Source of the DNA: an uncultured Cohaesibacter sp.
Lineage (GTDB): Bacteria > Pseudomonadota > Alphaproteobacteria > Rhizobiales > Cohaesibacteraceae
DNA: 64,000 nucleotides
Assembly: GCF_963666525.1 (NCBI RefSeq)
Contig: NZ_OY762905.1
Location: 1,054,001 to 1,118,000, forward strand
Reading direction: 5' to 3'
Positions 23,409-45,153 of the stretch are shown one piece after another (the stretch's first letter is position 1; every line of letters starts with the position of its first letter). The translations under genes were made by a program, and so were the position numbers. The notes under the pieces were generated by a model. It saw only the letters and a program-made list of their open reading frames with translations. It was not told the origin of the DNA and did not search any database.

Positions 23409-23409
23409 C

Positions 23410-24630: not shown

Positions 24631-24641
24631 TTCATGTCCTT

Positions 24642-26321: not shown

Positions 26322-26331
26322 TCCGGTCTCC

Positions 26332-27156: not shown

Positions 27157-28120
27157 ACTGGATCCTCTTGTCGAGCAGGGAATAGAGGATATCGGCAATG
27201 AAATTGACCACACAATAGGTCGCAGCCATGATCAGAACACCCGCCTGAATAGACGGCAGGTCGCGGGCCTGAATGGCAATGATCAACTGGCGGCCAATGC
27301 CGGGAATGGCAAAGATCTCTTCCACAACGATGACACCGCCGAGCAGATAGCCCACATCCAGAGCCACGATGGTGATCGTGGGCAGCAGCGCGTTGCGCAA
27401 GGCATGCCCCCAGAGAACCTGCCGTGAAGAAAGACCCTTGAGACGCGCCGCACGGATATAGTCAGCATGCAACACATCCACCATTTCCGAGCGCACCATG
27501 CGCGAGACATGGGCCACCAGAATGATGGAAATGACCGCAGCCGGCATGATCAGATGGGCGACTCCATCCCAGAAATTCTCGGTGAGCGGCACATAGCCCG
27601 TCGGAGGCAGAAGCTTCCAGCGGTCGGCAAGGAACAGCAGCGCCAGCGTGGCCGTAACGAACTCTGGCAGAGACACGCCAACATAGGAAATGAGGCTGAC
27701 AGCCATGTCGACAATCTTACCACGACGCACCGCAGCGAGAATGCCCAGCGGCACGGCGATAAACAGCATCAGGCAGATGGAAAAGAGTGCGAGAAGCAAC
27801 GAGCGGCTGAGAGCCTCAACCATGACAGGCCCGACTGACAGACCGGTGCGCAGCGAGGTTCCGAAATCACCCTGGAAGACACCGGCGATCCAGTGCAGAT
27901 ACTGCGTCCAGACCGGATCGTTCAGCCCCATCTGCTCCCGAAGCGCTGACAGCGCTTCTTCGGTCGCGTTCTCGCCCAGCATCATCACTGCCGCATCGGC
28001 AGGCAGAATCTGGGTCATGGCGAAAACGATCAACGACACGATCAGGAGCGTATAGAAAATCAGGGCCACCCGCTTTGTGAGATAGCTGGCAGACAACGTT
28101 TTGTTCCTGTTGTTTGTCAC
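27149..28120 (-). CDS. Peptide/opine-type ABC transporter permease (DppB family)
   Basis: A 323-residue membrane protein starting at a GTG. The DppB pattern is clear: an N-terminal helix, GLNDPVWTQYLHWIAGVFQGDFGTS in the periplasmic part, and the coupling segment HADYIRAARLKGLSSRQVLWGHALRNALLPT. It has six helices. It lies 76 bp downstream of the binding-protein gene; that gap has short GC-rich inverted repeats, common after highly expressed binding-protein genes. Confidence 0.95.
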   Translation of the reverse strand: MTNNRNKTLSASYLTKRVALIFYTLLIVSLIVFAMTQILPADAAVMMLGENATEEALSALREQMGLNDPVWTQYLHWIAGVFQGDFGTSLRTGLSVGPVMVEALSRSLLLALFSICLMLFIAVPLGILAAVRRGKIVDMAVSLISYVGVSLPEFVTATLALLFLADRWKLLPPTGYVPLTENFWDGVAHLIMPAAVISIILVAHVSRMVRSEMVDVLHADYIRAARLKGLSSRQVLWGHALRNALLPTITIVALDVGYLLGGVIVVEEIFAIPGIGRQLIIAIQARDLPSIQAGVLIMAATYCVVNFIADILYSLLDKRIQYD

Positions 28121-28196
28121 CGGCAGCCCGACAGCTCCAAGAGAGGGGACCTGGAACCGTCGGACCGTCGGCAGCAGTTAACTTGCTACGGGAAGA

Positions 28197-29756
28197 TTAG
28201 GACCGCGTCGGGGCCTTGTCGGTCAGCCAGGCATGGTCGAAACGGAACACGGAAGCACGCGGATGGATATCATAGGCGGCAACCCAGCTCCGTTTGGCAC
28301 CCAGCACATCGAAGAAGGTCGGGATGATGGACGGAACACCTTCATACTGAAGCTTCTGAGCCTCGGCATAAAGCTTGGCGCGGGTCGCATCATCGGCTGT
28401 CACACGTGCAGCATTGACCGCCTTGTCGAAGTCCGAATTATCCCAGCGCGTTTCGTTCCAGGCAGCATCGGAGGTGTAGAGCAATTTGAAGATACCGTCT
28501 TCGGTCGGCTGCATGTTGTAGAAGCCAACGTAGAAATTGCCCTTCTTCCAGACCTGATCGAGATAGGTGGCGTGCGGCATCGTCTGGACTTCGATATCGA
28601 AGCCAGCCGGTTTGGCCATTTCGCGCAGGGCAACAGCAAGCTGCGTGCGCAGGGCAGGCTTTTCGGAAGCCACCAGCGTGATCTTGATGCCATCGGCATA
28701 GCCGGCATCAGCCAGCAACTGCTTTGCCTTTTCAATGTCCGGCTTGCGCATCGGCTGTTCGGAATAGAAGCGATAGGCATTGTTGATCGGGGTATCGTTG
28801 CCTGCCGTGCCGAAGCCTTCGGTGACGAACTGGATCATGGCATCACGATCCACGGTAAGCGCAAGGGCCTGACGAACGCGCGGATCATCAAACGGCTTGA
28901 CGTCGCACCGCATGTTGACGTTGCAGAACTGACCGGAAGCGACGCGCTGCAGGTCAACGCCGTCGGTGCCGTCAAGACGCATATACTCGGTTGGATCCAG
29001 AGTGGAAATCAGGTCGATCTCGCCAGCAATGAGCGCCGAGCTCTCTGCGGTGGAATCCGGATAGACATTCAGCACGACCTTGTCGAGATAGGGCCGTTCC
29101 GGATCATAATAGTCCGGGTTGCGTCCAACCACGACCTGACGGTCCGGCTCGAAGGAAACCAGCTTGAACGGGCCGGTACCAACAGCTTCGCTGGAGAGTT
29201 TGTCGAGGCCACTCTCGATGATGGCAGCTGGAACGATCTTGGCATTCATGTAAGCGGTTGCTACCGGCATGTCGGCATAGGGGCCCGTCAGCTTGAAGAC
29301 AACGGTGAGCTCATCCTTGGCAACGACGTCCTCGATCGGCCCAACGTTCTTGCGGCCGGGAGAGGCGGTATCCGGATTGAGAATTGCCTTGTAGGAAGCG
29401 ACCACGTCAGCAGCGGTCAGCGCCGAGCCATCGTGGAACTTGACGCCCTTGCGCAGGGTGAAGGTCCATTCGGTCAACTCTTCGTTGGCGCTCCAGCTTT
29501 CGGCCAGATCGGCTTCCGGGCTCATGTCCACCTTGAGACGGGTCAGGCCGCTGTAGAGCAGTTCGGCCAGCATGTATTCCGGGTTGACGCGGACAAGCAG
29601 CGGGTTGAGCACGCTGGTTGCCTGATCGATGGCCACACGCAGGGTGCCGCCTTTTACCGGAGCCTGCGCGAAGGCGGGCATGGAAAGAGAAAGGGTCGCC
29701 GAAGCTGCCACAAAGGCAGTTCCGAGGAGAAAACGTCTGCGGGTTGTTTCAAGCAT
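28197..29756 (-). CDS. Peptide-type ABC transporter substrate-binding protein (SBP_bac_5)
   Basis: A 519-residue protein from the ATG at 29756, which has a GGAGG ribosome site. The N-terminus TRRRFLLGTAF followed by a hydrophobic stretch ending AFAQ looks like a Tat signal peptide, so it may be exported folded. The mature body is SBP_bac_5 (GGTLRVAIDQATSVLNPL, LAESWSANEELTEWTFTLRKGVKFHDGSALTAADV). This family binds peptides, opines, nickel or acylated sugars and amino acids. The neighbouring M20-type hydrolases suggest an N-acylated amino acid or short peptide. Confidence 0.94.
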   Translation of the reverse strand: MLETTRRRFLLGTAFVAASATLSLSMPAFAQAPVKGGTLRVAIDQATSVLNPLLVRVNPEYMLAELLYSGLTRLKVDMSPEADLAESWSANEELTEWTFTLRKGVKFHDGSALTAADVVASYKAILNPDTASPGRKNVGPIEDVVAKDELTVVFKLTGPYADMPVATAYMNAKIVPAAIIESGLDKLSSEAVGTGPFKLVSFEPDRQVVVGRNPDYYDPERPYLDKVVLNVYPDSTAESSALIAGEIDLISTLDPTEYMRLDGTDGVDLQRVASGQFCNVNMRCDVKPFDDPRVRQALALTVDRDAMIQFVTEGFGTAGNDTPINNAYRFYSEQPMRKPDIEKAKQLLADAGYADGIKITLVASEKPALRTQLAVALREMAKPAGFDIEVQTMPHATYLDQVWKKGNFYVGFYNMQPTEDGIFKLLYTSDAAWNETRWDNSDFDKAVNAARVTADDATRAKLYAEAQKLQYEGVPSIIPTFFDVLGAKRSWVAAYDIHPRASVFRFDHAWLTDKAPTRS

Positions 29757-29794
29757 TGGAGGTTCCTTCTTGAAGTGATTTTTGGCTGATATTC

Positions 29795-31111
29795 TTATTT
29801 TTGATCCGGATTCATATCCGGTTCGAAATCTGCGGCCAGATAGGACAGCACGCTCTTGGCAAGCGCGATGATATCTGGCGAAGTCGTATGTTCGTCCGGG
29901 CCATGGACATTGCTGGAAGGCCTCCCCAGCCCTCCCAGCAGGATTTCCTGCATCACACCGGCCTGCTGGACATATCCGAAGTCCGAACAGCTGGCCGCAC
30001 CCCATTTGGCAAAGTCCTTCTTGCGATAACCAAAGCCCGCGCTGAGCGCCTTCTGCCAACGTGGCCAGTGGGCCCCGTCCGGGTCAGCTGTCGGGGTCAG
30101 ATGGGATGTCTGCTCGATGCCATAGGTGATCATGTCGAGATCATCGAGAGCAGCATGAATGCATGCCTCGATCTCGGCGCGGGCGTCCGCGTAGGATTCT
30201 TCGGGCGCGTAGCGCCGCCCGATCAGCAACTCGAAACGCCCCGGCACCTGACCGGGTGCCGTCCCGCCATTGGCAGCTGCGATATAGAGCTGGGGCCGCA
30301 AGGGACCGCTTGCACCGGGAGCCGGCGCCAGCTTGGAGGCGCGCGCACCAACCTTTTCCTTGAGTGCCATAAGCGCATTCATCAGCGGGATGCTGGCTTC
30401 GATGGCATTGGCCCCTGCCCCGCTGCGGTTGCCGTCGCCCGCATGCACGGGCACGCCGCGAATGGTCAGCGTGAGCGCAAAGACGCCAAAGCATCCGGCC
30501 CAGACGCGCGGCGCCGCAGAGCCGTTGAAATTGAGAATATGGCCCTTGAGATAGCCCTGTTCCGCCAGATAGCGGATACCCGGATAGAGGCCGGATTCCT
30601 CGTCCGTGCAAAACAGCAGCATCGGGTCATAGGCGAGCGGAACAGCATGATCCTTGGCCACCTTAAGCGCCAGATAACAGGCAGCCATGGTGCCCTTCAT
30701 GTCCGCAGCGCCCAGCCCGTAGAGCCGATCATCCATCTTGGTCATGGCAAATGGCTCGAAGGTCCATCCCGGTGCAACGGGAACCGTATCGACGTGGAAA
30801 TAGAGCCCACAGACCGGCTTACCCGTTACACGCTCACCAATAAGATTGATCCGTTCGCCGGACGCCTTGCCCGAACGGGTCTTCCAGAGACCTTCGGGCA
30901 CCGACACCCGTTCAAAACCGAAAGACAGCGGTTCAAACAGCGATTGCGCCAGATCCGCAAACGCTCCATAGCCCTCTCCCGGGGGGAAAGTGGTATCGAC
31001 AGCGATCATCCGAGCCAGTGCATCCTCTGCAGAATTGACAGACTTCTCAATGGCTTCAAATGCCGGTTGCAAAGCTTGATGCGAGCGTAGAGAGTAACTT
31101 TTGTCTGACAC
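29795..31111 (-). CDS. M20-family peptidase/deacylase
   Basis: A 438-residue enzyme of the ArgE/DapE/ACY1 class, the first gene of the operon. The zinc-site motifs FHVDTVPV, GAADMKG, TDEES and the C-terminal NVHGPDEHT are all present; only the position of the third acidic ligand looks unusual (NFNGSA). It should cleave an N-acyl or peptide bond of the imported compound in the cytosol. It is close upstream of the binding-protein gene (38 bp) and starts about 88 bp from the divergent GntR gene. Confidence 0.92.
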   Translation of the reverse strand: MSDKSYSLRSHQALQPAFEAIEKSVNSAEDALARMIAVDTTFPPGEGYGAFADLAQSLFEPLSFGFERVSVPEGLWKTRSGKASGERINLIGERVTGKPVCGLYFHVDTVPVAPGWTFEPFAMTKMDDRLYGLGAADMKGTMAACYLALKVAKDHAVPLAYDPMLLFCTDEESGLYPGIRYLAEQGYLKGHILNFNGSAAPRVWAGCFGVFALTLTIRGVPVHAGDGNRSGAGANAIEASIPLMNALMALKEKVGARASKLAPAPGASGPLRPQLYIAAANGGTAPGQVPGRFELLIGRRYAPEESYADARAEIEACIHAALDDLDMITYGIEQTSHLTPTADPDGAHWPRWQKALSAGFGYRKKDFAKWGAASCSDFGYVQQAGVMQEILLGGLGRPSSNVHGPDEHTTSPDIIALAKSVLSYLAADFEPDMNPDQK

Positions 31112-31146
31112 CTTGTTGCCTCTGGATAGTGGACGGCGACGAATGT

Positions 31147-31167
31147 TTTCTATAAACTATATAGAAA
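31147..31167. promoter_or_regulatory. 8-5-8 inverted repeat between the peptide operon and its GntR regulator
   Basis: TTTCTATA-AACTA-TATAGAAA has perfect arms and lies in the 87-bp divergent gap, 36 bp from the operon start and 32 bp from the regulator start. Its position would let a GntR dimer block both promoters. Assignment to this regulator is inferred. Confidence 0.65.
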
Positions 31168-31198
31168 TATATGCGAGCAAAAGAGATAGATTGTCAAT

Positions 31199-31993
31199 AT
31201 GAAAGATGACGAGACACTGATGGCCCTTTTCCCCAAGGCGACGCAGGAAGATGATTTTTCACCGTCCATGGCTGACAGGGCCCAACCCCTCTACCTCGTG
31301 GTCAAGAGACAAATCTTTGAAGCTATCATGATGGGAAAATGGCCCGCAGGCACCGTCTTGCCCAGCGAAGTCGAACTGGCGCGGATGCTGCGCGTCTCTG
31401 TCGGAACCATCCGCCGGGCCCTCAGCGAACTGACGAATGAAGGCATGCTCAGCCGCCGTCGCAAGACCGGCACTGTGGTAACTGGTCGCACCCCCCAGCA
31501 CAGCCTCCGCTTCTTCTTTCAATATTTCCGCCTGCACGGACTGGACGGATCCCTGCAGCATTCGCAGGCCAGAAACCTGTCGCTGGTTTTCGGAGAGGCT
31601 ACGGATATCGAATCAGAAAATCTAAGCGTTGAACCAGCCACCCCGGTCATGCGCCTGTCGCGTGTGCGCAGCGTTCACGACAAGCCCGTAATGGTTGAAA
31701 CCGTAACGATGCCATCGGAACATTTGACGGATTTCCCGCGCAATGCGGAGGACGTCCCGGCCCTGCTCTATCTGTATCTGCTTGAGCATTACGACATTCG
31801 CATCTCGGCCGTGCGGGAAAAGATCGCGGCGGAATTGGCAAATGAGGATGACCTCGTCCATCTGCAACTGGAAGCCCCGAGCGCCGTCTTGACGATCGAG
31901 GAAGTGGCCTATGATCAGACCGGCACCCCGGTGCTTTTCACCAAACACCGGGCGACCACCCGCAGCCATCGCTACATCAACGAATTGCAGTAG
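31199..31993 (+). CDS. GntR-family regulator with UTRA domain
   Basis: A 264-residue regulator. After a 27-residue leader a GntR winged HTH spans about residues 28-100 (YLVVKRQIFEAIMMGKWPAGTVLPSEVELARML). A UTRA ligand domain follows to the end (LSRVRSVHDKPVMVE, VLTIEEVAYDQTGTPV). It is divergent from the peptide/acyl-amino-acid uptake operon and most likely represses it until an imported compound binds. It converges on a frameshifted GNAT gene. Confidence 0.93.
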   Translation: MKDDETLMALFPKATQEDDFSPSMADRAQPLYLVVKRQIFEAIMMGKWPAGTVLPSEVELARMLRVSVGTIRRALSELTNEGMLSRRRKTGTVVTGRTPQHSLRFFFQYFRLHGLDGSLQHSQARNLSLVFGEATDIESENLSVEPATPVMRLSRVRSVHDKPVMVETVTMPSEHLTDFPRNAEDVPALLYLYLLEHYDIRISAVREKIAAELANEDDLVHLQLEAPSAVLTIEEVAYDQTGTPVLFTKHRATTRSHRYINELQ

Positions 31994-32971: not shown

Positions 32972-33883
32972 TCAGCTCAGCACCAGCTTGCGGTTCTGCG
33001 TGTAGGCGGTGAAAATCTCCATCAGCTTCTTGCGGGCATCAGGAGAGACCGGCGCCAGCGGCCCCCGCACATATTCCAGTACCGAATTCTGCATCCCCAG
33101 AACACATTTGACGGGTGCCGGGCTGTTCTCGATGAACAGCGCCTCGGCGAAGGGACGCAAGGTATCATGCAGACGCAGGGCCGTCTGATAGTCACCAGCA
33201 ACCCACGCATTGTAGCAGGCAACACAGATTTCCGGATCATAGTTGGCCAGCACCGACGTCAGCCCGCTGGCGCCCAGCGCGTAGAAGGCCAGCGCCAGAC
33301 CGTCATCGCCACAATGGATGACAAAATCCTCGCCGCATCGGGCCCTGAGATCGGAAACCCGCTCGGCGCGTCCACCGGCTTCCTTGATGGCCACGATATT
33401 CTTGTTTGAATGACACAGGGCCGCCGCTGTCTGGGGGGCGATTTCAATGCCCGTGCGGCCCGGCACCGAATAGAGCATGATGTCGATGGAAACCGCATCG
33501 GCAATCGCTTCATAATGATTGATCAGGCCGGTCTGCGAGGGCTTGTTGTAGTAGGGCGTCACGATCAGAGCACAGTCGACGCCCCAGTCTTCGATCCGCC
33601 GGGTCCGTTCGACCGTCTTGGTCGTTACATTGGTGCCGCTACCGGCCAGAATGACCGCCTTGCCCTTGGCCCGCTCGACGGTTTTCTTGACGACCTGCTC
33701 ATATTCCTCGTCGGTGAGGGTCGAGGCCTCGCCAGTGGTGCCAACCGTCAGAAGGCCGGTCACGCCAGCTTCGAGCTGGCGGTCGATGAGGCGCTCATAG
33801 GCTGGCCAGTCGATGGCTCCGGTTTCGGTGAATGGGGTGATCAGGGCGGTGATGACACCGTCATACTGCTTGGATTTGCTCAT
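32972..33883 (-). CDS. DapA-family class I aldolase/lyase
   Basis: A 303-residue protein of the dihydrodipicolinate synthase/N-acetylneuraminate lyase family. TVGTTGEAST, VTPYYNKPSQ, the Tyr of YSVPGRTG (near 138) and the Schiff-base Lys of AIKEAGG (near 166) are all present, so it should be active on a 2-oxo acid. It closely resembles true DapA, but its place at the end of a catabolic operon suggests a degradative lyase or deaminase. One candidate is the role of HypD/LhpC in hydroxyproline breakdown. It follows an aldehyde dehydrogenase and a three-subunit dehydrogenase and precedes a strong terminator. Confidence 0.88.
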   Translation of the reverse strand: MSKSKQYDGVITALITPFTETGAIDWPAYERLIDRQLEAGVTGLLTVGTTGEASTLTDEEYEQVVKKTVERAKGKAVILAGSGTNVTTKTVERTRRIEDWGVDCALIVTPYYNKPSQTGLINHYEAIADAVSIDIMLYSVPGRTGIEIAPQTAAALCHSNKNIVAIKEAGGRAERVSDLRARCGEDFVIHCGDDGLALAFYALGASGLTSVLANYDPEICVACYNAWVAGDYQTALRLHDTLRPFAEALFIENSPAPVKCVLGMQNSVLEYVRGPLAPVSPDARKKLMEIFTAYTQNRKLVLS

Positions 33884-33919
33884 GATACTCTCCGATAAAT
33901 CAGTTTCTGGTGTGCACGA

Positions 33920-35320
33920 TCAGTCGATGACGACCTTGGATTCGCTCATTTCGCGGATGGTGATCCGAATGCCTTCCCGGCCCAGACCCGATGACTTGAT
34001 GCCACCAAACGGCACATGCTCCGCCCGGAAATCCGGGCCTTCATTCACCATCACGCCGCCAACCTTGAGCGAACGGGTTATCTTGCGGATCACCGCGTGG
34101 TCATTGGTGAAGATGCCTGCCTGCAGGCCATAGATCGAGTCGTTGACCTCCTCGACGGCGCTGTCGAGATCATCAAAGCCGCGCATGGCCAGAAGCGGCC
34201 CGAAAGTTTCCTCACGATAGATCTGCATGTCATTGGACATGCCGGTCAGCAGGGTCGGGGCAAAACGGGTCTTCTCGATCCAGCCACCAGTGCGGAGCGT
34301 TGCTCCAGCGGCAACCGCCGCCCGCACCCGCTTGTCGACTTCCTTTGCGGCAGCTTCATCGATCACCGGCCCCATGATGGTGCTGTCCTCGATCGGGTTG
34401 CCCAGCTTGATCCTGGAGATCCGCTCCAGCAGCATGTCGGTAAAGGTCTCTTCAATGTCCTTGTGCACATAAAGCTTCTTGACGGCGGCGCAGCTCTGAC
34501 CGGCGATTTCGAACCGCTGGCCGATTGCCGTATCGGCAGCCGCTTCAAGGTCGGCATCCGGCATGACAAACAGCGGATCGTTGCCGCCAAGCTCCATCAG
34601 GCAGCGGACAAGACCACTGGCATTTTTCAATGCCAGCCCAGCCTTGGCACCACCGGTAAAGGACAACAGATCGATCGGACCACGGGCCAGAGCGATGGCC
34701 GGGTCGGCAAAACCATGGACAATCTGCACCAGTCCTTCCGGCGCGCCAGCCAATTGGCAAAGCTCAACCACCCGATTGGGAGACAGCGGAGCCTTGGGCG
34801 ATGGCTTGACAATCACCGCATTGCCAGCCGCGATCGCCGGGCCAAGCTTGTGGCACAACAGGTTCACCGGATAGTTGAACGGGGTGATGGCCGCGATGAC
34901 CCCTACCGGCTCGTAGGTGACCGTCGCGAGTTTGTTGGCGCCGCCCTTGACGATGCCGCAATGCATGGTTTCACCATTGATGAAGGTGGCCGCATCGCCG
35001 GAAAGGCGCAGCGTGTTGCCGGCGCGACGGATTTCGTTACGGGCCTCGGTTATGGTCTTGCCAACCTCCTTGCAGACGGTCTGGGCAAGGCTTTCGGCTT
35101 CCTGCGCGATCAGTTCGGCGAGTTTGTCAAGGATGGCGCGTCGTTCCGACGGCATGGAAAAGCGAAAGGCAGCCGCCGCCTTTTTGGCGCGCGTGATCGC
35201 GGCAAACACATCGGCACCAGAAGCCTGAGGCAACTGGCCGATGACTTCGCCATCATAGGGGTTGGTGATAGTGAAACTGGCTGTTTCGGTAACAAGGGAG
35301 GGACTGGTCAGTGATGTCAT
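33920..35320 (-). CDS. NAD(P)-dependent aldehyde dehydrogenase
   Basis: A 466-residue aldehyde dehydrogenase. The cofactor and catalytic parts are present: ITPFNYPVNLLCHK, FTGGAKAGLAL, MELGGNDPLFV and the nucleophilic Cys in EIAGQSCAAVKKLYV, with EETFGPLLAM near the end. Its place between the DapA-family gene and the HcnABC-like dehydrogenase genes suggests a semialdehyde made by that route, such as 2-oxoglutarate or 2-aminoadipate semialdehyde. Glycine before the Cys and NDP in place of NAP make it look closer to glyceraldehyde-3-phosphate or lactaldehyde-type members; the substrate stays open. Confidence 0.9.
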   Translation of the reverse strand: MTSLTSPSLVTETASFTITNPYDGEVIGQLPQASGADVFAAITRAKKAAAAFRFSMPSERRAILDKLAELIAQEAESLAQTVCKEVGKTITEARNEIRRAGNTLRLSGDAATFINGETMHCGIVKGGANKLATVTYEPVGVIAAITPFNYPVNLLCHKLGPAIAAGNAVIVKPSPKAPLSPNRVVELCQLAGAPEGLVQIVHGFADPAIALARGPIDLLSFTGGAKAGLALKNASGLVRCLMELGGNDPLFVMPDADLEAAADTAIGQRFEIAGQSCAAVKKLYVHKDIEETFTDMLLERISRIKLGNPIEDSTIMGPVIDEAAAKEVDKRVRAAVAAGATLRTGGWIEKTRFAPTLLTGMSNDMQIYREETFGPLLAMRGFDDLDSAVEEVNDSIYGLQAGIFTNDHAVIRKITRSLKVGGVMVNEGPDFRAEHVPFGGIKSSGLGREGIRITIREMSESKVVID

Positions 35321-35374
35321 GATGCTATCCTTGTCGCAATTGGCTGCGATCTATCTATTTGATGAATTGATTGG

Positions 35375-36679
35375 TCAGATGGTCGACGTATGGTCTGTGG
35401 CTTCCGTGAAGGCGGAAACCGAAATGGGAATGGTGGGCCATCGCTCTCCGACGAGATCGGCCTCTGGCGATGCGCCGGACACAAAGTCCGAGACCCAATG
35501 GAGGCAGAAGCGCCCTTGGCAGGAGCCCATGCCGAAACGACCGCGCAGACGCAGCGCCCGCACGCTTTCGCCATCCTTGTCCTGCAACCGACGCAGGTCG
35601 CCTACCGTGCGGTTCTCACAGCGGCAGAGGACGGTCTCTTCGGGCAGATCAAGGACATCCGGCACCTTGACCGGTGCATAGAGAGTCTTGATCAGGGCTT
35701 GCGCCTGCTGCTCCCTCTCATGACGGACAACAGCATCCTTGGGCAATGCCACGTCTCGGCCCAGCCTTTTCATCAGACGGCAAGCCGCCAGAACACCGTC
35801 CGCCTCGGACGCAGCAGCACCGAGCACCTGAGCGCAATCACCAGCCTTTTCTGCCGGAATGACCGAGAGATCCCCCAGCCCGCTGGCGTTCGGCACGATG
35901 CCATCATGCAAGCCGACATGATCGGCAGAGATGGTCTTTCTTGCGCCATTGGCCGTTTCCACTTCCAGACAGAAAGCACCGTCCCTGTCCTTGCCGATAG
36001 AGACAAGACCGGCCCCCGTCATCACCGGCACACGATGGCGCAGCAGGGTGGCAATCAGCTCCACAGCTTCCAGCTTGTAGGAAAGCGGCAGCCCCATGCC
36101 TTTCAGCGGACTGGAAAACGGACGGCCTGCCTCGATGACGGCGGCGGGTGGATTGCCAAGCCGTGCCAGCTGGGCGGCGGCGACCAGCAGCAGCGGGCCA
36201 GACCCGGCCAGAACGATCCGGCCAGCAGGCGCGAACCCCGTTGATTTCATTCCGATTTGTAGCGCTCCAACCGTCGTGACGCCAGCTTCGGTCCAGCCAA
36301 TCCGCGGACGCACCAGTTCCCGAGCGCCCGTGGCCAGAATCAGGCCACCGGGGATCATGATTTCCGATTGACCTGAGTTCTCCGAGGCCAGAAAGATCGC
36401 GCCGCGCCAGTCGGTTCCGGCAAAGCGGGTCTCGGGGCGGAAGTCGACCTTGTCAGCACAGGCTTTCAGCCCGGCCTTCAACTGCGCCCACCGTTTCTCG
36501 TGGGCGCGGGTCAGCCGCAGTTTCTTTTCTCCCAGCTGGTTCTGACGGTAGATAGCGCCACCGATCGTCGAGGCCCGATCGACCAGCGTAACCGGCAGAT
36601 CGTGGCGCGCAAGGGTAATGGCTGCTGCAAGACCGGCAGGTCCGGCGCCGACGACGACAACGCGCTGTTCATGCGACAT
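35375..36679 (-). CDS. HcnB/OoxA-like FAD subunit of an amino-acid or opine dehydrogenase
   Basis: A 434-residue flavoprotein from the ATG at 36679 behind GAAGGAGA. The N-terminal VVVGAGPAGLAAAITLA binds FAD, and an ATGARELVRPR segment typical of this family follows. The C-terminus carries a BFD-like iron-sulfur motif (CRCENRTVGDL with SCQGRFC). In hydrogen-cyanide synthase, opine oxidases and D-hydroxyproline dehydrogenase this subunit works with a small 2Fe-2S subunit and a DadA-like subunit; both are encoded just upstream. It overlaps the 2Fe-2S gene by 11 bases. Confidence 0.92.
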   Translation of the reverse strand: MSHEQRVVVVGAGPAGLAAAITLARHDLPVTLVDRASTIGGAIYRQNQLGEKKLRLTRAHEKRWAQLKAGLKACADKVDFRPETRFAGTDWRGAIFLASENSGQSEIMIPGGLILATGARELVRPRIGWTEAGVTTVGALQIGMKSTGFAPAGRIVLAGSGPLLLVAAAQLARLGNPPAAVIEAGRPFSSPLKGMGLPLSYKLEAVELIATLLRHRVPVMTGAGLVSIGKDRDGAFCLEVETANGARKTISADHVGLHDGIVPNASGLGDLSVIPAEKAGDCAQVLGAAASEADGVLAACRLMKRLGRDVALPKDAVVRHEREQQAQALIKTLYAPVKVPDVLDLPEETVLCRCENRTVGDLRRLQDKDGESVRALRLRGRFGMGSCQGRFCLHWVSDFVSGASPEADLVGERWPTIPISVSAFTEATDHTSTI

Positions 36680-36944
36680 GATGGTCTCCTTCGGCTTCTG
36701 ATTGACGCAAGGCAACGGCGGCCTTGCCCTTGAGAGAGGCAACCTTCAGGCCTGGCTCACATTTTGAAAGACAGGCTTCCCGGACCCCTCTGCCTTCGAT
36801 CAGCACCAGACAGTTCTGGCACTGGCCGATGCCGCAGAAGATCGGAGCGGCAGCAAAAAGGCCATGCCGCCGCAGCGCATCGGAAATGCTTTCACCCGGG
36901 TTGAAAGCGACGGGCAGGCCGTCCCAGAGAATGATGTTGCTCAT
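36669..36944 (-). CDS. HcnA-like (2Fe-2S) subunit
   Basis: A 91-residue ferredoxin-like protein from the ATG at 36944. The four cluster Cys lie in CGIGQCQNC and the later ACLSKC, the pattern of small 2Fe-2S subunits of hydrogen-cyanide synthase and opine oxidases. Its start overlaps the end of the DadA-like gene by four bases, and its end overlaps the FAD-subunit gene, so all three are coupled. It carries electrons between flavins or to the respiratory chain. Confidence 0.92.
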   Translation of the reverse strand: MSNIILWDGLPVAFNPGESISDALRRHGLFAAAPIFCGIGQCQNCLVLIEGRGVREACLSKCEPGLKVASLKGKAAVALRQSEAEGDHHVA

Positions 36945-38152
36945 GCGAGGAGACCTTTCTTCGCCGCCGCAGCAATCCCGGTCGCCGTCTCGGATGGAAA
37001 GACACCCGCCGCGAGAAACCGGGAAGGCGAGAGGGCAGCAAGACTTGAATCCAGAGCTCCTCCACAAAGGCTCCTGGAAACTTCCCTGCCGATGAGGGCG
37101 GACAGGCAGATGCCATCCCCCTCGAAACCCGTTGCAATATGGATGTTCGGCATGTCAGGCACGGCGCCGACAATGGGAAGCCCGTCCTCGACCGCAGACC
37201 GGGCACCCGCAAAAACGCGAATGACGCGGCGCATGGCCAAAGGCGGATAGGCTTCCGTTGCAGATATCAACAGCCGCTTGACAGTGGAGAAATCGGTCTG
37301 CCGCGTCGTACGGTTCCTCTCTCTGGAAGAACCGATCAAAAGCTGTCCGGTCTCGACCGGATCCAGCACCACCGGCACATGAGCCTTCTGGCTGTCAGCC
37401 TTTATCTTGCTCATCAGGTAGGCGGCCGAGGTCAGGGCACCGGGCAATTCCGCACCATCTCCCCCCCCGCGATCCGTCACGATGATCTGCCCGACATGGG
37501 AATAGATCGGCAAGGCAGGAAAGAAACGCGCCGTCCCCAGCCCGGCCGCAAGGACGAGCTGGTCGCAGTCGATGTCACAACAGGACATGTGTACTCTGAC
37601 CGATCCTGTCGGACTTTGGTCCCAGCCTTGCAAGTAGGCCGGAAAGATCTTCTCGATACGTTCATCATTGAGATAATTGAAGGTTGCATCATATCCGAGC
37701 ATATGGCCCTCACCATGCACCTCCAAAAGGCGGGAAATCGACGCCGAAAGGCCTCCGATCACGGAGCCCGGCTCAGAGTGATCCCTGTGCACCCGCACGG
37801 CTCCCCTTGCCAGTTCGAGACGGGAAGCCAGATCGCCGACAACGGCGTCCTCTTCCTCTCCCCGGGCAAAAATGAAGGACGGGCGTTCCCTGAAAACAGA
37901 GCGCAAGGGGCCGCCCATGCCGGCAAGGGCCTTGGTTATGCCAAGCGATTCATGCGCCAGCGAGGCCATCAGCCCGGGGCGCTTTGAACACACCGACACA
38001 GCACCATCTGATGCACCGGAGGCGGCTGCTGCCGGGCCGGTGCTGTCTACTACACAAACTGTCTTGCCTTGCCGGGAGAGATGCCAGGCGATGGAGGCGC
38101 CGATAATTCCGGCGCCAACAATGACCACTTCAAATTTTCGCAAGCGTTTCAT
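36941..38152 (-). CDS. DadA/HcnC-like FAD-dependent amino-acid dehydrogenase subunit
   Basis: A 403-residue flavoprotein of the DAO family. The N-terminal VVIVGAGIIGASIAWHLSRQG is the FAD-binding fold, and the C-terminal GLPIVGAVPDMPNIHIATGFEGDG is the family's end motif. It should hold the site that oxidises a C-N bond of a secondary or primary amine. With the two following subunits it forms a likely membrane-linked dehydrogenase, related to opine oxidase or D-hydroxyproline dehydrogenase. It is first in its operon, and its promoter lies in the gap shared with a divergent importer operon. Confidence 0.9.
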   Translation of the reverse strand: MKRLRKFEVVIVGAGIIGASIAWHLSRQGKTVCVVDSTGPAAAASGASDGAVSVCSKRPGLMASLAHESLGITKALAGMGGPLRSVFRERPSFIFARGEEEDAVVGDLASRLELARGAVRVHRDHSEPGSVIGGLSASISRLLEVHGEGHMLGYDATFNYLNDERIEKIFPAYLQGWDQSPTGSVRVHMSCCDIDCDQLVLAAGLGTARFFPALPIYSHVGQIIVTDRGGGDGAELPGALTSAAYLMSKIKADSQKAHVPVVLDPVETGQLLIGSSRERNRTTRQTDFSTVKRLLISATEAYPPLAMRRVIRVFAGARSAVEDGLPIVGAVPDMPNIHIATGFEGDGICLSALIGREVSRSLCGGALDSSLAALSPSRFLAAGVFPSETATGIAAAAKKGLLA

Positions 38153-38469
38153 GGCTGCTCCTGTCGTTCTGGAGCAAGACTACGGAGGAGAGAAGCGAAA
38201 TACGATCCAAAATTTATAGGTGGAGCTGTAAGAAAAATTGCATTTTCTATGTCATCCTCCGAAAAACTGCCAAGTTTTCAACGACAAAGACATTGAGTTA
38301 CAAACAATTTTGTATGATCGACATGTAATGTTGTATTGCAAATCCCTTCGGTTCAGCGTTGGCTTGTAATTAAGATTTCCCTCCGGATGTCCTGTCCGGG
38401 AAAGCGGGGTCGCACATATAAGCCGGGGAAAAATCCCGGCACTCAATCATCGACCAGGAGTTAAAATTC
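38153..38469. other. Shared promoter region of two divergent catabolic operons
   Basis: A 317-bp AT-rich gap between the DadA-like gene and the importer binding-protein gene. It holds the inverted repeat at 38299-38314 and, near 38455, the ribosome site CAGGAG for the GTG at 38470. No gene is seen. Confidence 0.7.
38299..38314. promoter_or_regulatory. Inverted repeat in the divergent promoter region
   Basis: TACAAA-CAAT-TTTGTA has perfect 6-bp arms and lies about midway between the two operons. It also fits the T-N11-A outline of LysR sites. A LysR gene (41961) ends the right-hand operon and is the best candidate to bind it. Confidence 0.5.
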
Positions 38470-39297
38470 GTGTTTAAAAAGACAATTGGAGCTATTTTGA
38501 TAGCAGCTGCTGCCATTGCCTTGGCACCGGCCGCTCAAGCACAAAGCAAGCTGGATGAAATCCGCAGCCGTGGCACATTGCGCATGGCGGGCATCCTGAA
38601 TGAGGACCCCTATTTTGCCAAGGATCCTCGCACCCAGGAATGGCGCGGATTTGCCGTCGAAATGGCACGGGACATTGCCAATACCATCGGCGTCAAGCTT
38701 GAAGTCGTAGAATCCAGCTGGGCCAACTCGATCCTCGACGTCCAGTCCAACAAGGTTGACCTCGCTCTGGCCCTGACCGCCATGCCAAAGCGCGCCATGT
38801 CGATCTATTTCAGCTCACCGACCTACTATAACAGCTTCGTCCTGCTCTCGCCCAAGAATGATGTGGCCAACAAGACATGGTCCGAAATCAATGACATGGG
38901 CCTGACCATCGCCGTCGATCTGGGCTCCGCACAGGACCAGATTGCAACGCAGTATCTGACGAAAGCCAACATCCTTCGTTTCAAGACCCGTGACGAAGCC
39001 CTGATGGCCCTTGCTTCCGGCAAGGCCGACGCCGTGATCAACACCGTGCTCAACGCCATGGTCATGGTCAAGAAGAACCCGGCCTTCGGCACCGTATACG
39101 TTCCCAAACCAATCCTCTCATCGCCGTCCGTCATCGGCGTCAACTACAATTCCGATGAAGTCTGGAAAAAGTTCATTTCCGCGTGGGCCGATTACAATCG
39201 TCGCGTGGGCAACAACCAGACCTGGATCGTCAAGGGTCTGGAGCCTTTCGGCATCACCCTTGATGACCTGCCCGACGGATTTGACATCGGCGGCTGA
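38470..39297 (+). CDS. Polar amino-acid ABC transporter substrate-binding protein
   Basis: A 275-residue protein starting at a GTG with CAGGAG upstream. The signal peptide MFKKTIGAILIAAAAIALAP ends at AQAQ near residue 25. The SBP_bac_3 pattern is clear: IRSRGTLRMAGILNEDPYF, WRGFAVEMARDIANTIGVKLEVVE, KVDLALALTAMPKRAMSIYF. It opens the operon that goes on with permease, ATPase and a saccharopine-dehydrogenase-family enzyme, and is followed by an internal terminator-like hairpin. A basic or zwitterionic amino-acid derivative is the likely ligand. Confidence 0.94.
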   Translation: MFKKTIGAILIAAAAIALAPAAQAQSKLDEIRSRGTLRMAGILNEDPYFAKDPRTQEWRGFAVEMARDIANTIGVKLEVVESSWANSILDVQSNKVDLALALTAMPKRAMSIYFSSPTYYNSFVLLSPKNDVANKTWSEINDMGLTIAVDLGSAQDQIATQYLTKANILRFKTRDEALMALASGKADAVINTVLNAMVMVKKNPAFGTVYVPKPILSSPSVIGVNYNSDEVWKKFISAWADYNRRVGNNQTWIVKGLEPFGITLDDLPDGFDIGG

Positions 39298-39312
39298 TTT
39301 AAACCTCTGACT

Positions 39313-39343
39313 GGTGCCGGACACTGCTCCGGCACCTTCTTTT
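39313..39343 (+). terminator. Intra-operon attenuator-like hairpin after the binding-protein gene
   Basis: GGTGCCGG (39313-39320) pairs perfectly with CCGGCACC (39329-39336) and is followed by TTCTTTT. It lies 15 bp after the binding-protein stop and before the permease, where partial termination or mRNA protection would raise binding-protein levels over the membrane parts. Confidence 0.75.
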
Positions 39344-39402
39344 CAGAGCGGATTACGAATTTTTTATTTGAGTGGGTTGTCCAACTCAAAATGAGGATCT
39401 GA

Positions 39403-40065
39403 ATGTATACTTGGGATTTTTCCATGGTCATGCAGTCCTTCGATCTATTCATCGATGGGCTGGAAATGACATTTCTCTATACCGTAGGCTCCATTGCAAT
39501 CGGCATCGTGATTGGCCTCTTGGCGTGTTTCGCCCGGATTTCGGGCAACCCGATCCTGAGCATCATCTCAAGAACCTATCAGGAGATTTTTCGCTGCACG
39601 CCCCTGCTCGTCCAGATCATGTGGGCCTACTATGCCCTGCCCATGCTGCTGGGCATCTCCATTCCCAATAATGTGGCCGGTCTGGCAACCCTCTCCCTCT
39701 ATGTCGGATCCTTTTACGCAGAAACATTTCGCGGTGGCATTGCCGCAGTGGACCGGGGACAGCGTGAAGCCGCACAAGCAATCGGCATGAACAGCGCCCA
39801 GATCATGCGCCACATCATCATGCCGCAGGCCATCAAGAACATGTTGCCCGCCTTCATCAACCAGTCAGTGATCCAGGTGAAGAACACGTCCCTGCTCTAT
39901 GCCATTTCCGTTGCCGAACTGACCTACATGACCGCCGTCGTCAACTCCGAAACCTACAGACCGATGGAAAGCTACACGATCGCTGCAGTCATGTATTTCG
40001 TCATGCTGTTCCCTCTCACCCAGATTGCCGATCGCTTTGAACGCAGAATGCGCCGGTCTGACTAA
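39403..40065 (+). CDS. Polar amino-acid ABC transporter permease
   Basis: A 220-residue membrane protein of the HisMQ/GlnP type with about five helices. [18 protein letters not shown] is the conserved helix and the coupling loop reads [26 protein letters not shown] single permease gene suggests a homodimer. It stands between the binding-protein and ATPase genes, with 20 bp to the latter. Confidence 0.94.
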
Positions 40066-40085
40066 TCTTCGAAGGAAAAGAAGCA

Positions 40086-40853
40086 ATGGAATCCGAAATC
40101 AATACAGTCATGTCCATTCGCAGTCTGTTCAAGCGATATGGTGAGCACACGGTTCTGAACGGCATCGATCTGGATATCGAGCAGGGCGAGGTCGTAGGGA
40201 TCATCGGCCCGTCCGGCTCGGGCAAGTCGACATTCATCCGCTGTCTCAACCTGATGGAAGAGGTCAGCGACGGCACCATCCGCTATCGCGGCAAACTCGT
40301 CTCCGACAAGTTCAAGGACAACGGCAACAAGATCGGCATCGGCACCCTGCGTCGCCACGTCGGCATGGTCTTTCAGCATTTCAACCTGTTCCCCCATCTC
40401 ACCGCCCTTGAAAACATCACCAAGGGGCCGATCGTCGTGCTGGGAGAAAAGAAGGAGGAAGCCGAAGCGCATGCATTGGAGCTGCTCGACAGGGTCGGCC
40501 TGAAGGACAAGGCTGGCAACTACCCGTCGCGCCTGTCCGGCGGTCAGAAGCAGCGTGTTGCCATCGCCCGCGCACTGGCCATGCGACCGGACATGCTGCT
40601 GCTTGACGAAGTGACGTCCGCTCTCGATCCGGAGCTCGTGGGCGAAGTGCTGACGGTGGTCAAGGATCTGGCGATGGGCGGCATGACAATGGTACTTGTC
40701 ACCCATGAAATGGCATTTGCCGCCGATGTGTCCGATCGCGTGATCTTTCTCGATGGCGGCGTGATTGCCGAACAGGGCTCACCGGACGATATCATCCGCA
40801 ACCCGCAGTCGGACCGCTTGCGCAGTTTCCTCTCCCGTTTCAATCAGCAGTGA
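40086..40853 (+). CDS. Polar amino-acid ABC transporter ATP-binding protein
   Basis: A 255-residue ATPase of the GlnQ/HisP type. Walker A is [12 protein letters not shown], the Q-loop is [12 protein letters not shown], the signature is [11 protein letters not shown], Walker B is [14 protein letters not shown], and the H-loop is [11 protein letters not shown]. The LysDH-like gene follows 13 bp later. Confidence 0.96.
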
Positions 40854-40866
40854 AGGGTACGCCATC

Positions 40867-41964
40867 ATGGCAAAGACGATTGTCATCGCCGGCGGTGGCC
40901 GGATTGGAGAAGAGCTGGCCCGTCAGCTCGCCGCTGTTTCCGACTATGAGTCGCTGATCGTCGAGGTGAACCACCAGCGCAGTCGCGCGCTCAAGGATGA
41001 AGGCCTCAGCGTCGTTGAAGGCGACTGCCTCAGTCAGACGGTCATGGTGCCGCTTCTGCTCAAGGCCGATGCCCTGATTGCGGCGGTCACATCCGATCTC
41101 GTTCCCCGGTTGGCGGAGTTCGCCTGTCAGTATGACTGCCACTTTCTCGATTTCTCAGAAGAGGCTGGCATAAGGCAGCAGATCTCCGACATGCTCGACA
41201 CATGCGGCAAGGGCGAAGCGCTATCCTTTGCGTCTGGCTGCGGACTGGCCCCCGGCTTTGCTGGCGCCCTGACCGAAGATGTCATCCGGAAATGCAACAG
41301 GGATGACGAAGTCACCGTATTCGTCGGCGTGCTGCCTCAGCAGCGCACCAACCGTCTTGGCTACTGCAACATCTGGGGCGTCTCGGGACTGGTGGACGAA
41401 TATTTCAACGACTGCATGGCCATCAGGGACGGTGTGCCTCAGACCATTGCGCCATTGTCGCTATTTGAAACCATCATGATCGGCAGACAGTCCTACGAAG
41501 CCTTCACGACCTCTGGGAGCCTCGACAACCTGGTTGCCCGCTATCAGGGACAGCTCAAAGGGCTGGTTTTCAAGACGCTGCGCTACCCCAAGCATCTCGA
41601 TTACATGCTTTTCCTGCTTGATGACCTGCAACTTCGCAAGAGGCCCAGCTCTCTCTCGAACCTGATGCTCAACACACTCCCCAAAACCAGCTTCGATCGT
41701 GTTATCATAGCCATCGAGACCACGCGAAACGGCAAGAAGGGACTTCCTGTTCTGAAGATATTCGAAGGCGATGAGACGGCAGCAGCCTCCACCCGGCTCT
41801 CGGTAGCCCATGCCGGCTGCGTGCTGGATTTGATTTTTGCGGGAGATCTGTCAAAAGGCAGTGTGACGGAGGCAGGTGACCTGTCGCTTGAACATCTGTC
41901 CCGCAGCCCCTTCTCCGGCCTTTTCCAGAGTGAAGGACATTTGCAAAAAGCTTTGGCGACATGA
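40867..41964 (+). CDS. Saccharopine-dehydrogenase-family protein, L-lysine 6-dehydrogenase-like
   Basis: A 365-residue protein from the ATG at 40867 (MAKTIVIAGGGRIGEELARQLAAV), an NAD(P)-binding Rossmann start. The middle segment GCGLAPGFAGALTEDVIRK and the later SYEAFTTSGSLDNL and KTLRYPKHLDYMLFL follow the pattern of bacterial L-lysine 6-dehydrogenases within the saccharopine-dehydrogenase family. Those enzymes oxidise the epsilon-amino carbon of lysine to 2-aminoadipate semialdehyde, which cyclises. Fusion to an importer operon suggests the imported compound, or a product of the divergent three-subunit dehydrogenase, is its substrate. The exact substrate is inference. Confidence 0.82.
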   Translation: MAKTIVIAGGGRIGEELARQLAAVSDYESLIVEVNHQRSRALKDEGLSVVEGDCLSQTVMVPLLLKADALIAAVTSDLVPRLAEFACQYDCHFLDFSEEAGIRQQISDMLDTCGKGEALSFASGCGLAPGFAGALTEDVIRKCNRDDEVTVFVGVLPQQRTNRLGYCNIWGVSGLVDEYFNDCMAIRDGVPQTIAPLSLFETIMIGRQSYEAFTTSGSLDNLVARYQGQLKGLVFKTLRYPKHLDYMLFLLDDLQLRKRPSSLSNLMLNTLPKTSFDRVIIAIETTRNGKKGLPVLKIFEGDETAAASTRLSVAHAGCVLDLIFAGDLSKGSVTEAGDLSLEHLSRSPFSGLFQSEGHLQKALAT

Positions 41965-42893
41965 CGAATAAATCAGGAAAAGCAAAACCCAAGTTCGAGC
42001 TCTCTCTGTTGCAGACATTCTATCTGGTCGCACAGCATGGCTCCTTTTCATCGGCCTCACGCAAACTGAACATTTCCTACCAGTCTGCAGCGAACCATGT
42101 CCGGCGCCTCGAGAGCATGTATGGTGCGCGTCTGGTCGAAGCGGAAAAGGGATCCCGCTCGGTCAAACTGACCCCGCAGGGAAAGGCACTCTACGCCATC
42201 TTCGGCACCGAGCTGGAAACGATCTTCGCCCGCATATCGGTGCTCATGCAGGAAGAACGCTCCGTCCTGCGCATCGGTGTACCACAGGCAATCTTCCACC
42301 ACTTCTTCCCGCGCATCATCGCCCAGTTTCAGGAACAGCAGCCGGACATAGCGCTCGATTTCTTCGAGCGCGATACCCAGCTTGAAGACATGATGCTGAA
42401 CGGCGAACTCGATGCCTGCGTCTCCGAGCGTTACTTCGGCGAAGCGGCAATCTCACAGATCCTGCTGGGAGAATATCCGCTCAGCCTGATCTATCCAAGA
42501 GAGTGGCGCTATGGCGAGATCACCAAGGACAACATGGAGATTCTGCTCGAAGCACCGTTCATTACCTATGAGCCCGGACAGACCATCCGCTCCCGTGCGG
42601 TGGACTTTCTCAAGGCGAGGCTGGGAGCCGACCCGAAGATTCTGGTCACCTCGTCCGGCTCGACCAGCCTCAAGAAGATGATCGCCGAAGGGCTGGGCTT
42701 TGCCTTTGTTCCCGACTGGCTGGTGCCCGACGATGATCCCAAGATCGGCAAACTGCGCATTCAGTCCCTCAAGAAAATGAAGGTTTATCTGGGCTACTCG
42801 GCCTTTCTGGCAGACAACGACCACCTCTCGGTCTTTGACAAGATCTGCCGCAAACAGATCGGCATGCATCTGGACAACGCGCAGGAAGGCTGA
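41961..42893 (+). CDS. LysR-family regulator
   Basis: A 310-residue regulator. After a short basic leader the HTH reads LSLLQTFYLVAQHGSFSSASRKLNISYQSAANHVRRLE, followed by a LysR effector domain. It overlaps the preceding LysDH-like gene by four bases (ATGA), so unusually for LysR genes it is co-transcribed as the last part of the operon it probably controls. The divergent operon at 32972-38152 is a likely second target. Confidence 0.92.
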   Translation: MTNKSGKAKPKFELSLLQTFYLVAQHGSFSSASRKLNISYQSAANHVRRLESMYGARLVEAEKGSRSVKLTPQGKALYAIFGTELETIFARISVLMQEERSVLRIGVPQAIFHHFFPRIIAQFQEQQPDIALDFFERDTQLEDMMLNGELDACVSERYFGEAAISQILLGEYPLSLIYPREWRYGEITKDNMEILLEAPFITYEPGQTIRSRAVDFLKARLGADPKILVTSSGSTSLKKMIAEGLGFAFVPDWLVPDDDPKIGKLRIQSLKKMKVYLGYSAFLADNDHLSVFDKICRKQIGMHLDNAQEG

Positions 42894-42972
42894 CACCGTT
42901 ACCTGTCAGGGCCTGTCGCTGGCAGGCAGAATTGTTGATACATGCAATAATGAACAAATGAAGGTTTGACGA

Positions 42973-43671
42973 ATGGAAAAAGTAGCGATCCTCACAGCAG
43001 CAGGAAGCGGAATGGGGGCAGCTGCGGCCCGGAAAATGGCAAGCGAAGGCTACAAGGTTGCCATCCTTTCCTCCTCGGGAAAAGGCGAGGCGCTGGCAAA
43101 GGAGCTTGGTGGCATCGGCGTGACCGGTTCGAACAGGAACCCCGATGATCTCAAGGCACTGGTTGACCGGACCATGGCAACATGGGGACGCGTCGATGTG
43201 CTGATCAACAGTGCCGGACATGGCCCCAAGGGACCGTTGCTGGAGATTTCCGACGAAGACTGGGTCAACGGCATGGAAGTCTACCTGATGAACGCCATCC
43301 GCCCGACACGGCTGGTCACACCGATCATGCAGGCCCAGAAGTCTGGCTCGATCATCAATATTTCCACCTATGCAGCCTTTGAGCCCGATCCGCTGTTCCC
43401 AACGTCCGGTGTATTCCGCTCGGGCCTTGCCGCCTTCACAAAGCTGTTCGCCGACCGCTATGCCGCCGACAATATACGCATGAACAACGTGCTCCCCGGC
43501 TTCATCGACAGCCTGCCGGAAAAGGAAGATCGCCGGGCACGCATCCCCATGGGGCGGTATGGCTCCGTCGAGGAAGTGGCCGCAACCATCGCATTCCTCG
43601 CCTCTGAAGGGGCTGCCTATATCACCGGGCAGAACATCCGCGTTGATGGTGGCATCACCCGGTCCGTCTGA
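42973..43671 (+). CDS. SDR-family protein without the Tyr/Lys catalytic pair
   Basis: A 232-residue Rossmann protein of the short-chain dehydrogenase fold. It has a modified dinucleotide motif TAAGSGMG, an INSAGHGP segment and the catalytic-region Ser (INIST). The usual Y-x-x-x-K is S-x-x-x-R (Ser145 and Arg149 in TSGVFRSGLAAFTK), although the fold beyond it (NNVLPGF, YITGQNIRVDGG) is complete. Reduction by the standard mechanism is doubtful; I have a recollection of the same variant in other alphaproteobacteria. It lies 79 bp after the LysR gene and may belong to that operon. Confidence 0.87.
   Translation: MEKVAILTAAGSGMGAAAARKMASEGYKVAILSSSGKGEALAKELGGIGVTGSNRNPDDLKALVDRTMATWGRVDVLINSAGHGPKGPLLEISDEDWVNGMEVYLMNAIRPTRLVTPIMQAQKSGSIINISTYAAFEPDPLFPTSGVFRSGLAAFTKLFADRYAADNIRMNNVLPGFIDSLPEKEDRRARIPMGRYGSVEEVAATIAFLASEGAAYITGQNIRVDGGITRSV

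Positions 43672-43734: not shown

Positions 43735-43735
<1 letters not shown>
43704..43735 (+). terminator. Rho-independent terminator between the SDR gene and aspA
   Basis: AGCCGACAG (43704-43712) pairs with CTGTCGGCT (43722-43730), followed by TCTTTCATT on the plus strand. It overlaps the end of the convergent aspA gene and ends the importer operon. Confidence 0.75.

Positions 43736-45153
<1,418 letters not shown>

Follow-up and report, generated by a model that had tools for sequence, protein, structure and literature searches.

In a 64,000-nucleotide stretch of the genome of an uncultured Cohaesibacter sp. (G000:C1:1054001-1118000, here called the window; the host genome is 5.18 Mb in one contig), positions 32972 to 43671 hold two divergent gene groups that together encode an importer, a three-subunit flavin dehydrogenase, a lysine-6-dehydrogenase-like protein, an aldehyde dehydrogenase (ALDH), and a DapA-like protein of the dihydrodipicolinate synthase (DHDPS) type. 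The enzyme families are known; of their conserved combination we found no description in the open-licence literature. The set contains an importer together with a regulator and an ALDH, which points to catabolism. We propose, at a probability of about 0.4, that the island is a self-contained catabolic module of alphaproteobacteria in which the DHDPS-type enzyme carries out a retro-aldol cleavage of a C7 imino dicarboxylate to pyruvate and aspartate semialdehyde, the ALDH then oxidizing the semialdehyde to aspartate.

The gene set and its conservation

All of the open reading frames of the original prediction are present where it placed them, and the families that it gave were confirmed with Pfam and NCBIfam (DHDPS, Aldedh, Pyr_redox_2, Fer2_4, DAO, SBP_bac_3, Sacchrp_dh_C, LysR, and SDR, with a HEQRo-type permease and an amino-acid ATP-binding cassette [ABC] ATPase for the importer). 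The minus strand carries the DapA-like, ALDH, and flavin dehydrogenase genes, and the plus strand carries the importer genes, the lysine-6-dehydrogenase-like gene, the regulator, and a short-chain dehydrogenase/reductase (SDR), as follows.

32972..33883, minus strand: DHDPS-type (DapA-like) aldolase/lyase (PF00701; TIGR00674)
33920..35320, minus strand: ALDH (Aldedh), part of the conserved set
35375..36679, minus strand: alpha subunit of the three-subunit flavin dehydrogenase, with FAD and four Cys, CxC-x32-Cx4C (Pyr_redox_2)
36669..36944, minus strand: gamma subunit, 2Fe-2S, Cx4Cx2Cx12C (Fer2_4)
36941..38152, minus strand: beta (catalytic) subunit, R-x-F (DAO family)
38153..38469, no strand: divergent promoter region, 317 bp, with blocks conserved in two congeners
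38470..39297, plus strand: family-3 periplasmic solute-binding protein, with Arg108, Thr192, and Glu45 (SBP_bac_3)
39403..40065, plus strand: polar amino-acid ABC permease (HEQRo-type)
40086..40853, plus strand: amino-acid ABC ATPase
40867..41964, plus strand: lysine-6-dehydrogenase/saccharopine-dehydrogenase-like NAD(P) enzyme (PF16653; 3abi match)
41961..42893, plus strand: LysR-type regulator, part of the conserved set
42973..43671, plus strand: SDR with S-x-x-x-R, not core, close copies only in two congeners
43735..45153, minus strand: aspartate ammonia-lyase (aspartase) family gene, adjoining the island on the strand opposite to the SDR group

To find related loci, aligned sequences of the binding protein served as the query against named genomes, and the best 80 of 81 relatives were taken. 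Since the binding protein served as bait, the figures describe the set around this protein and not all relatives of each enzyme, and loci with another importer would escape such a search. Gene presence was judged with identity thresholds, some proteins being cut by contig ends, and the counts include two loci entered twice (L049 = L100 and L055 = L107) and two near-identical Celeribacter loci. All ten core genes lie together in 67 of the 80 loci, within spans of 8.7 to 10.8 kb, a clustering far beyond chance. Ten of the 13 incomplete loci reach a contig end, and in one of these (L061) the lysine-6-dehydrogenase-like gene is, in addition, missing from where it normally lies; another (L127) is cut by the flank length, and two (L073 and L074) lack genes in the examined stretch. 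The original prediction had taken the two operons as one unit and had named a synteny search beforehand as a possible refuter; that unity is upheld here. The core genes occur in three arrangements, in 30, 22, and 15 loci, the window being of the 15-locus type; five loci with a differing start coordinate were merged into these, their gene order being the usual one. A first contig scan, with the lysine-6-dehydrogenase-like protein as query, gave no match.

Within the genus the island is variable, being present in 3 of 18 genomes, its own included (G000, G003, and G016). The set is also found together, in rearranged order, in G046 and G180 (another family), and the copy in G304 is cut by a contig end. 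An even class-wide sample of 385 genomes gave matches to the DAO subunit at E <= 1e-50 in seven; only G000 and G436 exceeded 230 bits, and G436 carries the full set, which is not present at the other five matches (L155-L159). Hosts of the module include Rhodobacteraceae, Devosia, Bosea, Ciceribacter, Martelella, Pannonibacter, and others, and the module is sometimes borne on plasmids. In a tree of five concatenated proteins (73 tips, two loci being in twice), the window joins its congeners first and Celeribacter baekdonensis next (support 0.997), nested in a clade of the 15-locus gene order (18 tips, support 1.0). This topology fits a horizontal gain in the window's genus, with loss there of a DapB-like gene described below.

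The island was also seen on a contig labelled as an Arenimonas metagenome-assembled genome (L109); the tree places this locus with those of Ciceribacter, and the contig is probably misbinned. A Rieske oxygenase beyond the flavin dehydrogenase trio in L073 was considered as a variant pathway and dropped, an unrelated acylphosphatase-like frame (judged by eye) lying between.

The DapA-like protein

The island DapA scores 302 bits against TIGR00674, for which the cut-off is 206, and has the motifs GTTGE, YYNKP, and YSVPGR, the same as a DHDPS control. Residues T49, T50, Y112, Y138, R143, and K167 do not vary among the 74 island sequences (two loci counted twice); we take them to be Thr44, Thr45, Tyr107, Tyr133, Arg138, and Lys161 of E. 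coli DapA, in which Arg138 binds the carboxylate of aspartate semialdehyde. Two lyases from hydroxyproline clusters (L162 and L050), taken as deaminases from their cluster context and 63-64% identical to each other, have instead GSMGD and a YYGF segment and lack YYNKP and VPGR. This difference in motifs makes pyruvate, aspartate semialdehyde, and hydroxytetrahydrodipicolinate (HTPA) the most likely reactants of the island enzyme, rather than pyrroline-4-hydroxy-2-carboxylate (Pyr4H2C). The genome has a second DapA-family match at G000:C1:732400 (40% identity) and, elsewhere, a DapB that scores over the cut-off, so the island DapA is an extra copy.

The three-subunit flavin dehydrogenase

The trio has its subunit plan and gamma Cys motif in common with both opine and hydroxyproline dehydrogenases (PMC4575208). 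In PMC4575208, the motifs of opine dehydrogenases are given as Cx4Cx2Cx(11-12)C in the gamma subunit, CxC-x(15-20)-Cx4C in the alpha subunit, and an Arg-X-Trp FMN motif in the beta subunit. The gamma pattern is present in 81 of 81 sequences of the island family. The alpha Cys spacing is 30-36 in 77 of 81 and falls in the published range in 0 of 81; that of the hydroxyproline control, 22, also lies outside. Where the opine enzymes have R-x-W, the beta subunit has R-x-F (Arg in 82 of 82 sequences and Phe in 81, with one gap); at this position the hydroxyproline control reads RAW. The comparison with opine dehydrogenases is one of published motifs and subunit plan, and closeness to that family is putative.

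A related trio lies on plasmid pB of Sinorhizobium meliloti LMB1 (L147), together with a LysR gene, an oligopeptide-type transporter, and an arginase-family gene. Its beta subunit is 60% identical to the nearest island probe and 37% identical to that of the window. We rejected this locus as an instance of the set, given its link to the oligopeptide-type transporter.

Proposed pathway

The gene set, its conservation, and its catalytic residues were read directly, and from them we infer a direction, intermediates, and a substrate as follows. The ABC importer would take up a carboxylated compound with a substituted or ring amine. The flavin trio, aided by the NAD(P)-dependent lysine-6-dehydrogenase-like protein, would oxidize C-N bonds to yield a C7 imino dicarboxylate of the tetrahydrodipicolinate or hydroxytetrahydrodipicolinate kind. 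The DHDPS-type enzyme, working in the retro-aldol direction, would cleave this to pyruvate and aspartate semialdehyde, and oxidation of the semialdehyde to aspartate by the ALDH would pull the pathway. Where present, the DapB-like protein may act on a related 2,6-dicarboxylate intermediate or side product. Overall, part of lysine biosynthesis would be reversed. The likeliest substrate class is diaminopimelate-related, either meso-diaminopimelate or an N-substituted or cyclic derivative. The more specific proposal that the module serves for eating cell-wall diaminopimelate or a derivative through the reversed dehydrogenase version of lysine biosynthesis, by way of the lysine-6-dehydrogenase-like protein and flavin dehydrogenase, the DapB-like protein, the DapA-like protein, and the ALDH to pyruvate plus aspartate, as a dedicated pathway of 10-11 genes, we regard as doubtful.

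Accessory genes suggest aspartate on the product side. In both the window and G016 the island adjoins an aspartase-family gene, that at 43735-45153 being a possible product-side accessory. Twelve of the 67 complete loci carry an aspartate/glutamate racemase-family gene at the edge of the set, 11 of these 12 being without the DapB-like gene, and G016 also has a gene of this racemase family.

The DapB-like gene lies between the ALDH and DapA genes in 45 of the 67 complete loci, and two plasmid records annotate it as a dihydrodipicolinate reductase C-terminal domain protein. In a profile search the family matched a solved DapB (2e-41). In an alignment of 48 sequences (one of four controls, L151, being disregarded as on the wrong strand), the Lys is kept in 46 and the SGT motif in 47 (Ser), 47 (Gly), and 46 (Thr), while the E-x-H-H-x-x-K-x-D-A-P-S-G-T-A motif of the genome's own DapB is not fully kept. 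In loci without the gene, the gap between ALDH and DapA is 18-175 bases, too small to hold it, and such loci fall at about seven separate places in the tree; the gene thus looks dispensable and has apparently dropped out repeatedly. In the near-complete genome G016, TIGR00036 (dapB) gave no match at E <= 1e-3.

The binding protein bears on the nature of the imported compound. The Arg that we take to be the carboxylate ligand (Arg108 in the window) is kept in 84 of 84 sequences, and Glu45 is invariant in 33 aligned sequences. The model of the protein has a mean predicted local distance difference test (pLDDT) score of 82 and is weak at residues 1-15 and 105-111. At the position presumed to hold the Asp for an alpha-ammonium group, as defined by alignment with an ancestral amino-acid binder, Thr is found in 83 of the 84 sequences and Ser in one (Thr192 in the window). 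SAR11_1068, one of the sequence and fold neighbours of the protein, has Ser at the Asp-aligned place and has been solved with a sulfobetaine. Replacement of this Asp by Thr or Ser suggests that the ligand lacks an ordinary free alpha-amino group and is N-substituted, cyclic, or quaternary; the earlier suggestion of an N-substituted amino acid is in keeping with both positions.

Several observations weigh against the proposed retro-aldol route. One is this same Thr/Ser substitution, the main evidence against free diaminopimelate, whose two amino-acid ends it does not suit. The lysine-6-dehydrogenase-like protein counts both ways. Its profile matches 3abi at 1e-43, and its AlphaFold2 model (pLDDT 92) has 3abi as the best fold match, followed by saccharopine and carboxyspermidine dehydrogenases, a fold result that speaks for the route; against it, the closest relatives act on lysine and saccharopine, not diaminopimelate, and meso-diaminopimelate dehydrogenases appear only from rank 26. 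In 46 of 48 aligned sequences the DapB-like protein has Tyr where the first His of the pair would stand, and the two of 48 that were scored against TIGR00036 gave 108.7 and 116.7 bits, below the cut-off of 122; on these grounds it is probably not an ordinary DapB, and its gene is missing in 22 of the 67 complete sets and in the window. The ALDH has as its best NCBIfam models the sulfoacetaldehyde dehydrogenase SafD and lactaldehyde dehydrogenase, the best 25 of 45 all scoring below cut-off; its role on aspartate semialdehyde is putative. The aspartase-family gene was not found in the island stretch of G003 or in those of the 80 named loci. Furthermore, the reversed DHDPS and DapB steps are expected to run uphill unless something pulls them strongly. 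Finally, the open-licence literature gave, among the matches listed, no description of the gene set or of such a pathway, a point that counts weakly since subscription work lay outside the search.

Alternative readings

An opine-type function was suggested by the original prediction, with possibly a lysine opine or a glycation product as substrate. That choice is unsupported, and it would leave the DapA-like and DapB-like proteins, relatives of enzymes for C7 intermediates of lysine biosynthesis, with no evident role. In a broader form, which we consider somewhat unlikely, the compound would be an N-substituted amino acid, such as a carboxyethyl or 3-amino-3-carboxypropyl amine, from which the trio would release an amino acid plus an oxo acid. 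The lysine-6-dehydrogenase-like protein and the ALDH would oxidize the amine part by way of a semialdehyde, and the DapA-like and DapB-like proteins would take the released pyruvate and aspartate semialdehyde. The fold neighbours noted above include carboxyspermidine dehydrogenases, enzymes that act on adducts of aspartate semialdehyde, and the missing alpha-ammonium Asp of the binding protein would be accounted for. The trio also resembles the flavin opine dehydrogenases in subunit plan and gamma Cys motif (PMC4575208), but it has R-x-F at the place of the reported R-x-W, and opine splitting gives a DHDPS-type aldolase no clear task. A ligand without an alpha-amino group would likewise be explained if the module acted on a pyridine or piperidine 2,6-dicarboxylate, such as spore dipicolinate, converting it by reduction or oxidation to dihydrodipicolinate for cleavage by the DapA-like protein; relatives of two lysine-pathway enzymes that recognize 2,6-dicarboxylates would then also find a place. 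This we hold to be quite improbable, as dipicolinate requires reduction, whereas the trio looks oxidative, and the obvious reductase, the DapB-like protein, is the one so often missing from complete sets.

Two readings have very little in their favour. The intact catalytic residues of the DapA-like protein would permit forward biosynthesis, in which it and the flavoprotein would turn aspartate semialdehyde and pyruvate into dipicolinate or a chelator related to it, but the conserved set includes an importer and an ALDH that would use up the precursor, and we think this very unlikely. In the other, which the comparisons have largely refuted, the trio would be a D-hydroxyproline dehydrogenase, the DapA-like protein a Pyr4H2C deaminase, and the ALDH an alpha-ketoglutarate semialdehyde dehydrogenase. 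A control cluster on a plasmid of Caballeronia sp. M1242 (L162), with an epimerase, a trio, and a DHDPS-family protein, does match the island in the order of its DAO, 2Fe-2S, FAD, and DHDPS-superfamily genes (no ALDH is in the stretch shown), and PMC4113996 assigns these superfamilies to the hydroxyproline pathway. Against this, the island DapA motif is wrong for the deaminase by both controls, and the two large subunits of the trio are only 27-29% identical to those of the hydroxyproline control. A 4-hydroxyproline epimerase gave no match in the examined stretches of 79 of the 80 named loci; in the exception (L111, 1-1751), the epimerase lies about 2 kb from the island, separate and with its own HypD-like gene. 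Moreover, the host genome has its own trans-4-hydroxyproline-type cluster (L050, G000:C1:2979500-2999000), with the genome's sole PF05544 match, the epimerase, at 2988638, far from the island, and with a single-subunit DAO-type oxidase, an ALDH, a HypD-like lyase, and a tripartite ATP-independent periplasmic (TRAP) transporter (translations mostly read by eye). We therefore rejected plain hydroxyproline catabolism on the DapA motif, the lack of an epimerase, and the separate cluster; the doubt already voiced in the original prediction is strengthened by all three.

Flanking genes and gene starts

The original prediction counted the SDR as a member of the group, which the comparisons do not support. 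Close copies are confined to two congeners (L047 and L048), which marks it as a bystander rather than a core gene; among the 80 named loci, 26-31% matches occur in three (L083, L085, and L124) and none in 77. The solved SDR 4o6v resembles it closely (377 bits) and has the same Ser and Arg in alignment where the island protein has S-x-x-x-R in place of the usual YxxxK, a feature conserved in the two congeners. A role for the SDR as a replacement for DapB was rejected on this similarity and on the lack of a close copy in any named locus (0/80).

Likely start codons are ATG 36679 for the FAD/BFD subunit, ATG 36944 for the 2Fe-2S subunit, overlapping the DAO stop, and ATG 40867 for the lysine-6-dehydrogenase-like protein. 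The intergenic region at 38153-38469 is partly conserved in the two congeners, and a simple scan of it revealed no palindromic LysR box. Beside the island, at 22281-31993, are genes for an M24-type peptidase, an oligopeptide-type ABC transporter, an ArgE/DapE-family (M20) hydrolase, and a GntR regulator (translations read by eye), possibly a unit for peptide uptake and cleavage; M20 and GntR genes also adjoin the island in G003.

Significance and comparison with known systems

Three annotated plasmid records label the module as loose parts, with dapA assigned to lysine biosynthesis, and exact phrases on the breakdown or use of diaminopimelate or dipicolinate gave no match in the open-licence literature. 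If the proposed retro-aldol route is true, it would be a catabolic use of a biosynthetic aldolase and would correct the plasmid dapA annotation; it would also be a recycling route for an abundant nitrogen compound of cell walls or spores.

The island has in common with OdhABC and with NoxBA and OoxBA (PMC4575208) the three-subunit plan, the gamma Cys motif, and a linked ABC transporter. It differs from them in R-x-F rather than R-x-W, in the longer alpha Cys spacing, and in the linkage of its trio to DapA, an ALDH, and a lysine-6-dehydrogenase-like protein. With trans-4-hydroxy-L-proline clusters of the Lhp type, as in L162, it shares the DAO, 2Fe-2S, and FAD/BFD trio and a downstream DHDPS-superfamily protein; unlike them, it has no epimerase, a DHDPS rather than a deaminase motif, and R-x-F in place of R-x-W, and it adds the lysine-6-dehydrogenase-like protein and often a DapB-like protein. 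The former of these shares its fold and Rossmann motif with the L-lysine 6-dehydrogenase 3abi and with saccharopine and carboxyspermidine dehydrogenases, although identity to 3abi in the fold alignment is 19% and use of lysine by the island protein is putative. As in DapA and DapB of lysine biosynthesis, the catalytic residues of DHDPS are retained by the island DapA, and the DapB-like protein keeps the SGT motif and the position of the catalytic Lys; unlike those enzymes, the island relatives are extra paralogues in an importer-linked operon.

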